From Candidatus Auribacterota bacterium (GTDB taxonomy: Bacteria > Auribacterota > JAFGBW01), in NCBI GenBank assembly GCA_016932965.1, contig JAFGBW010000282.1, forward strand, positions 1 through 14,522: a stretch of DNA of 14,522 nt, given 5' to 3'. Under the pieces are notes generated by a model that was given only the letters and a program-made list of their open reading frames with translations, was not told the origin of the DNA and ran no database searches. The stretch's first letter is position 1. Every line of letters starts with the position of its first letter. Positions 1,268 through 13,688 of this stretch are shown piece after piece. The position numbers were made by a program, and so were the translations under genes.

Positions 1268-1294
1268 GAAGGGAAACTTTTTTTGGGTCTCTTC
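1268..1294 (+). terminator. Terminator-like imperfect inverted repeat with T tract, copy 1
   Basis: Arms GAAGGGAAAC (1268-1277) and GGGTCTCTTC (1285-1294) flank seven T's. It lies 69 bp after the stop of the metallopeptidase-like gene. An element with nearly the same arms occurs on the minus strand at 2033-2070, just after the efflux adaptor gene. The T tract is in the loop rather than after the stem, so this is not a textbook intrinsic terminator. It may be a small repeat instead. Confidence 0.3.
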
Positions 1295-1345
1295 AAGAAT
1301 GCATGAGTGATGTAAAGTATTGAATCAAAAAACAGCCATTTTTTC

Positions 1346-1373
1346 TGTCATTCCCGCGAAAGCGGGAATCCAG
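1346..1373 (+). repeat. Left 28-bp terminal repeat containing a GAAA-loop palindrome
   Basis: The core is ATTCCCGC, GAAA, GCGGGAAT: a perfect 8-bp stem with a four-base loop of the stable GNRA type if transcribed on this strand. It is extended by TGTC on the outer side and CCAG on the inner side. It matches the right copy exactly in inverse orientation over 28 bases; similarity stops abruptly on both sides. Confidence 0.85.
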
Positions 1374-1380
1374 CTTTTCC

Positions 1381-1659
1381 TTACAGATTACAATATAAAT
1401 CCTTCCACTCAGGATTATTTCTCTCAATAAGTTCCAATTTCCATTTTCGATTCCATTTTTTAATATATTTTTCTCTTTCAATGGCTGATTTAATGTCAGT
1501 AGTCTGCTCGTAATAAACCAGAATATCGATGTTATATTTAGAAGAAAATCCTTCAACTAAATTATTTTTATGCTCAAATACTCTTCTCTTTAAATCATTT
1601 GTAACACCAACATATAAAGCATCATTTTTCTTACTTGCTAATATATAAACGAAATACAT
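1381..1659 (-). CDS. Small GIY-YIG nuclease-family protein (COG2827-like), 92 aa
   Basis: Starting at the ATG at 1659, the protein begins MYFVYILASKK, the usual N-terminus of the small single-domain GIY-YIG family. A longer frame to 1701 only adds translated repeat sequence. The two name-giving tripeptides appear as VYI (residues 4-6) and YVG (16-18). Arg25/Arg26 in DLKRR, His30 in EHK, Glu63 in IEREKYIKKW and Asn82 in the C-terminal NNPEW are at the expected catalytic or structural positions, so the fold looks intact. Members of this superfamily cut DNA using one divalent metal ion, but the substrate of the small stand-alone branch is poorly defined. Base use is clearly more AT-rich than the neighbours, consistent with transfer. 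The gene is enclosed by exact inverted repeats and points away from no obvious promoter. Confidence 0.88.
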   Translation of the reverse strand: MYFVYILASKKNDALYVGVTNDLKRRVFEHKNNLVEGFSSKYNIDILVYYEQTTDIKSAIEREKYIKKWNRKWKLELIERNNPEWKDLYCNL

Positions 1660-1672
1660 GTTTATAAGAATC

Positions 1673-1700
1673 CTGGATTCCCGCTTTCGCGGGAATGACA
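1673..1700 (-). repeat. Right 28-bp terminal repeat, inverse of the left one
   Basis: Exact reverse complement of 1346-1373. In the direction of the nuclease gene it ends 13 bp before the ATG, and the junction forms the sequence CAGGA, which is the only Shine-Dalgarno-like sequence for that gene (about 12 bp upstream). The repeat may therefore supply part of the translation signal. Confidence 0.85.
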
Positions 1701-1727
1701 TTTTTTCGTTTTATATTTTAATTCACT

Positions 1728-2032: not shown

Positions 2033-2070
2033 CGAAGAGAACCTTTTTTAAAAAAGAAAAGTTTCCCTTC
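2033..2070 (-). terminator. Terminator-like imperfect inverted repeat after the efflux adaptor gene, copy 2
   Basis: Read on the minus strand, GAAGGGAAAC (2070-2061) is followed by a T-rich then A-rich centre including T6A6, and by GGTTCTCTTC (2042-2033). The arms pair imperfectly (about 8 of 10). It begins 18 bp after the adaptor stop codon, the right place for a transcript end. The arms are nearly those of the element at 1268-1294. Confidence 0.4.
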
Positions 2071-13137: not shown

Positions 13138-13408
13138 AGAATTCAGGAGTCAGGATTCAGAATTCAGCAGGAACGCCTTCGGCATTTTGAATGGAATCAT
13201 GAAATCGTTCGGCTGCCTTGCAGCCTCACTGACTTCTCGATTCTCGCTTCTGAATTCTAAAAACAATACAATAATTTAAGACGTTGATAATGGCGATAAC
13301 CGTTAGCAGAAAAATAAACCGGACAGCAGTGTCTCTACTTATAGAAGTGAGTAAACTATTAGAAAAATATGTTCATTCTATGATTCTGAATTCTGACTCC
13401 TGAATTCT
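13138..13408. repeat. 271-bp unit bounded by 23-bp inverted repeats and enclosing copy B
   Basis: 13138-13160 and 13386-13408 are inverse copies with a single mismatch, built from the words AATTCAG, GGAGTCAG and their complements. Between them lies copy B of the 160-bp repeat. Tracts of alternating GAATTC/CAGGAGTC words are seen scattered in many environmental bacterial genomes (recollection). No gene is inside. Confidence 0.65.
13169..13330 (+). repeat. 160-bp structured interspersed repeat, copy B
   Basis: It aligns with the reverse complement of 1728-1888 at about 89% identity. The first hairpin pair A-T of copy A is G-C here, a compensatory change, although an adjacent C-G has become C-A. 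The second hairpin GGCTGC/GCAGCC is perfect here and has a G-T pair in copy A. A 26-codon frame starting at the shared ATGAAATCG is open in both copies, but most of its differences change the amino acid, so it is not considered a gene. Confidence 0.8.
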
Positions 13409-13530: not shown

Positions 13531-13688
13531 TACAACCACTTTCTTTGGAAATAAACCTGCCCTGTGTGGCATTCATGAATGTCAACCTGGACCAGGTTTA
13601 TCATGGATTAATATGGAATCAACCGGAGATAATGGTTCTTCGCTGTTGCCAGTTTATTGAAAGTAATAAAATATAAGGAGTCATGATT

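Follow-up and report, generated by a model that had tools for sequence, protein, structure and literature searches.

Does a small nuclease gene that is enclosed by two exactly matching palindromes form a mobile unit together with them? This question is raised by a locus in a 14,522-nucleotide contig of Candidatus Auribacterota bacterium (assembly GCA_016932965.1, contig JAFGBW010000282.1), the whole of which is referred to here as the window. At this locus, a 92-codon GIY-YIG endonuclease gene lies between two inverted copies of a repetitive extragenic palindrome (REP) of the CGTC class. The reading that we favor, at a probability of roughly 60%, is a two-part unit composed of a small GIY-YIG endonuclease and the two flanking inverted CGTC REPs that it recognizes, i.e., a GIY-YIG "REPtron" that is the likely partner of the CGTC REPs and moves via single-strand cleavage and host repair instead of by classical transposition.

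Architecture of the REP-flanked nuclease gene

The GIY-YIG nuclease gene is located on the minus strand (1381–1659, 92 codons plus stop, with the ATG at 1659 and the stop codon at 1381–1383) and is spaced by 7 and 13 bp from two REP palindromes at 1346–1373 (plus strand) and 1673–1700 (minus strand). The two arms are complementary as inverted repeats over 28 of 28 nt (100%), which far exceeds chance, and the sequence TTTTTTC stands directly outside both of them (1339–1345 and 1701–1707, plus strand). Thus, the exact 28-bp inverted repeats, the 92-codon gene between them, and the TTTTTTC at both ends were all found again where the initial annotation had placed them. Each of the identical arms is composed of an outermost TGTC tag, an 8-bp stem (ATTCCCGC), a 4-nt GAAA loop, and a CCAG tail that faces the gene, in the case of the right copy its start; the predicted folding energy is −9 kcal/mol (z = −5.8).

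CGTC-1 REPs are defined by a CGTC, often TGTC, tag, an 8-bp stem with AT first, a 4-nt loop, and a CCA tail (Di Nocera et al. 2013, PMC3733652), and both window arms exhibit all of these features. The CGTC-1 group includes dRS3 from Neisseria and RPE-6 from Rickettsia; RPE-4 is assigned to CGTC-4 (PMC3733652). CGTC REPs were described as being without a dedicated transposase, and no tyrosine transposase gene was flanked by them (Di Nocera et al., PMC3733652). The likeness of the window palindromes to CGTC-1 REPs including dRS3 extends beyond tag, stem, loop, and tail to the occurrence of inverted dimers elsewhere, whereas the GIY-YIG gene as a regular companion of the repeats sets the present case apart. 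The proposed analogy to REPs and their REP-associated tyrosine transposases (RAYTs) holds for the layout: inverted REPs around a nuclease gene and inverted REP pairs elsewhere are also found in REP/RAYT REPtrons and REPINs (PMC3116915, PMC3733652). It fails for the type of enzyme, as RAYTs are HUH tyrosine transposases acting on GTAG REPs, whereas the window combines a GIY-YIG nuclease with CGTC REPs.

The deduced protein matches PF01541 (E = 1.2e-16) and has conserved the VYI/YVG motif, R26, H30, E63, and others among the catalytic positions. No domain other than PF01541 was found in it, neither a transposase domain nor that of a HUH tyrosine transposase. An assignment to the group I intron homing endonucleases was rejected, with a TIGR01453 score of 27.6 bits below the cut-off of 56.05, and PADLOC and PDB sequence searches gave no matches. 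It shares 54% identity over 89 aa with a homologue from Neisseria gonorrhoeae, the gene of which is surrounded by dRS3-like repeats in the same layout as around the window gene. This homologue is probably Ssn. Reportedly described in Nature Communications in 2025, Ssn is said to represent a family within the GIY-YIG superfamily that cuts single strands at specific sites and has thousands of homologues, of which the meningococcal enzyme recognizes the NTS repeat; to our knowledge, mobility as a REP-flanked unit is not part of its description. A GIY-YIG domain with the catalytic residues is present in the window protein as well, and site-specific single-strand cleavage is predicted for it.

The outer border of the right REP (1673–1701, minus strand) holds a second in-frame ATG, from which a 106-aa form starting with MSFPRKRESR... 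and carrying the extension MSFPRKRESRILIN would be translated, and CCAGGA at the REP tail could act as a weak ribosome site. Because of these two features, the REP may affect the expression of its own gene.

Recurrence of gene and palindromes across phyla

The relatives analyzed comprised 80 loci from many phyla, mostly from metagenome-assembled genomes (MAGs), with proteins 55–69% identical to that of the window. Palindromes of the form GTCA-hairpin-TCCA were present within 150 bp of the gene at 61 of these loci, and on both sides at 43 of them. This result corroborates that the GIY-YIG gene and the GAAA-loop-type palindrome represent one recurrent unit. At the same loci, the palindrome density amounted to 6.4 per kb near the gene versus 1.12 per kb in other intergenic DNA and 0.18 per kb in coding DNA, as determined with simple open reading frame (ORF) masking. 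The tag pointed outward in 104 of 151 palindromes, the usual layout being GTCA outward and TCCA inward; both motifs were constant, and the stems differed (TTCCCGC, TTCCTGC, TTCCGGC, TGCGGG, CCCGGG, and others).

A second palindrome class (GAG type, GTCATTGCGAG or GTCATTCTGAG) was found around a different protein clade. On the protein tree, the stem class changed 10 times versus 26.7 times with shuffled labels, a match for which host lineage is a partial confounder. Within the phylum of the window, the loop-4 type occurs at the window and at two further loci (L015, L016), and the GAG type at three loci (L017, L018, L023) whose proteins belong to the other clade. On a plasmid of Planktothrix agardhii (L127), a GAG-class GIY-YIG gene is located between an MmeI-type restriction gene and the DISARM gene drmA. 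Carriage by phages was considered and rejected: a phage collection contained no close relatives (best identity 37%), and viral contigs gave two good matches.

Unit boundaries and sites without the unit

Alignments of the window to loci of other phyla often end near the outer palindrome edges, for example at −41/+39 (L016), −41/+50 (L048), and −42/+42 (a copy in genome G046) relative to the gene; others break off within the gene. G046 harbors two diverged copies whose DNA identity of 82% sets in only at the outer border of the upstream palindrome and reaches into the downstream one; the surroundings of the two copies are unrelated. When a site lacking the unit was sought in the genus of G046, the flanks were too diverged.

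Relatives of other carriers do contain sites that lack the unit. One is the interval from sufB to sufC: in Azospirillum lipoferum 4B it is occupied by the gene with a REP dimer on either side, and ten further Azospirillum records can be aligned over sufB and sufC with no unit present, three of them at 95.0–96.5% identity. No duplication was visible at this site, the left intergenic part of which has diverged. The presence of the unit varies among Sphingobium plasmids, through either gain or loss. Three of those compared carry it between fnrL and a gene for a response regulator. Among the plasmids lacking it, two have one symmetric palindrome in this position, which looks like a fusion of the outer halves, and two have none. 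The flanks of gene-less Shinella plasmids diverge ahead of the unit, giving no usable junction, and for Rhizobium and Novosphingobium plasmids no gene-less relative was close enough to be informative. Mechanism aside, the data support mobility in the sense of a recurrent unit that has been gained.

Repeat copies in genomes with and without the gene

In the 3.1-Mb genome of the window, 8 copies of the generic pattern were identified, the two window copies included, which defines a low-copy dispersed family; the palindrome is thus indeed dispersed, with solo copies in the same genome. One contig (C216) contains an inverted REP dimer between GACCTCTGCATAA/TGCAGAGGTC arms, and another (C202, locus L202) the fully symmetric form GTCATTCCCGC-TTTC-GCGGGAATGAC. 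Symmetric palindromes (GTCAT...ATGAC) without a CCA tail, found at L202 and at the Sphingobium loci L155 and L157, look like the joined outer halves of two REPs and are possibly deletion scars. Further GIY-YIG domains of this genome are encoded in a 114-codon frame (C226) and a 554-codon frame (C170); no such palindrome was evident beside the C226 gene.

Throughout the phylum of the window, repeats were more numerous in genomes with the gene (P = 0.02), with at least three copies in 5 of 11 genomes containing it versus 3 of 33 without it. A second phylum showed no significant relation between the presence of the gene and the number of repeats (P = 0.22). Comparisons within genera using the strict pattern gave 79 copies in G027 (gene present) versus 0 in G033 (gene absent), and 13 in G046 (gene present) versus 0 and 1 in G059 and G060 (gene absent).

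Proposed mechanism of mobilization

Recognition of the repeats by the nuclease is likely; the cleavage of single strands, the self-driven movement, and the sequence of steps are inferred as follows. The nuclease would bind the hairpin or the tag in single-stranded DNA, such as the lagging-strand template or transforming or conjugating DNA, and cut at a specific site. Cuts at both flanks would free or expose the single-stranded unit, and host repair, annealing, or recombination at other palindromes would accomplish rejoining and insertion. These last steps would fall to the host: in contrast to tyrosine transposases, GIY-YIG enzymes are not known to remain covalently attached to the DNA. Cleavage combined with host repair would therefore produce no fixed target duplication, and the unit would spread mostly by horizontal transfer. 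Single and dimeric REPs would be non-autonomous relatives of the unit.

Tentatively, and with somewhat less than even odds, this GIY-YIG clade may consist of dedicated mobilizers of CGTC REPs, and may thereby constitute a second, chemically distinct REP mobilization system beside the RAYTs that operates by single-strand cleavage without target duplication. Whether CGTC REPs, including meningococcal dRS3 and two Rickettsia palindromic elements, have a mobilizer at all, and which one, was left open in the survey of 2013 and is now directly testable: with a nuclease gene that regularly lies between matching copies, tracks the stem class, and is gained between genes, the target of each nuclease should be predictable from its own flanks. 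Should the work on Ssn already connect its homologues with target repeats in their flanks, what is new would be reduced to the recognition of these repeats as CGTC REPs, to the boundaries of the unit, and to the signs of its gain.

Evaluation of alternative explanations

Several observations weigh against a self-mobile two-part unit. Most of the loci derive from MAGs, and the protein tree is poorly resolved. Repeats are abundant in genomes without a detected gene, with 21 copies in G001 and 76 and 93 copies in the second-phylum genomes G067 and G073, both of which are incomplete; a looser pattern gives G059 and G060 5 copies each. In G027 (L135–L154), most of the sampled REP dimers are nested at dispersed sites in a miniature inverted-repeat transposable element (MITE), which measures ~140 bp, has GTAAGGGGTCA at its ends, and is accompanied by target duplications of 8 bp. 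Because gene-less genomes are repeat-rich and the G027 dimers are carried in a MITE, repeat number does not reflect nuclease activity alone. The nuclease itself may spread the repeats, which are commoner with the gene in the phylum of the window; this idea is weakened by the repeat-rich genomes without a detected gene and by the G027 copies that reside in another transposon. Movement is infrequent, given that the position of some same-genus loci is conserved in Rhodopseudomonas and in Maritalea. Finally, a flanking direct repeat of at least 5 bp was observed only in the window among 34 intact pairs, which speaks against a general target duplication.

The conserved position in some genera and the absence of a target duplication would also be expected of a stationary nuclease that cuts single-stranded repeats genome-wide, e.g., limiting or shaping DNA uptake, while the copies on either side control or shield the nuclease gene itself and spread proceeds by ordinary recombination between repeats. 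The REP 13 bp upstream of the start codon in the window could act on expression in this way, and the work on Ssn in Neisseria reportedly includes a link to transformation. Some movement is nevertheless required by the gain between sufB and sufC and by similar units at unrelated loci of one genome, although recombination could supply it; we regard the stationary nuclease as rather unlikely, yet as a serious competitor.

A clearly improbable explanation is that unrelated transposons or MITEs carry the REP pairs and the gene as passengers, as the ~140-bp MITE does with most sampled REP dimers of G027. The unit of the window is embedded in a 41-bp hairpin repeat specific to this genome (GAAGGGAAACTTTT...AAAAGTTTCCCTTC), which is often adjoined by a second hairpin and is intact at three other sites (L205, L206, L207). 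In the window, its left arm (1268–1284, plus strand) and right arm (2042–2070, minus strand) are split by a 775-bp gap holding the unit, the inner ends of which resemble a 10-bp inverted repeat, GG(G/T)TCTCTTC, with a 9/10 match (P ~0.008 versus local sequence). Part of another dispersed repeat is also inside this gap, which may therefore have been built up by several insertions. Passenger status is disfavored by the REP-gene-REP core, which is constant while the outer MITE varies by genome, and no such outer ends were evident in Azospirillum.

A classical transposon of the insertion sequence type, bounded by terminal inverted repeats and by a target duplication of 7 bp, would fit the window layout and the TTTTTTC repeat, and is very improbable given that none of the 33 other intact pairs has a duplication of at least 5 bp and that the protein is devoid of a transposase domain. 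The TTTTTTC repeat has a P value of ~0.001–0.0025 from local composition in a T-rich region; across 34 units, 0.15 cases of at least 6 bp are expected (P = 0.15), which makes one case unremarkable. It is thus likely a product of chance in T-rich DNA, and its initial interpretation as a putative target-site duplication is not supported, with no counterpart in the 33 other pairs and none visible in Azospirillum. Mere coincidence, with REPs simply common in intergenic DNA (1.12 per kb away from the gene), is rejected in view of the approximately sixfold enrichment by the gene, the orientation bias, and the match of stem class and protein clade.

Further features of the window

A repeat of ~178 bp is present in the window at 1728–1905 and 13152–13330 in inverted orientation with 87% identity. 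One copy lies beside the GIY-YIG unit and the other upstream of a gene starting at 13683, the latter copy (13152–13330) being bounded by inverted arms of the GAATTCAGGAGTCAG type. At 42–1199, the window contains an ORF of 385 aa without a Pfam match at E ≤ 0.001, the deduced product of which has a zinc-protease-like HEIAH motif.
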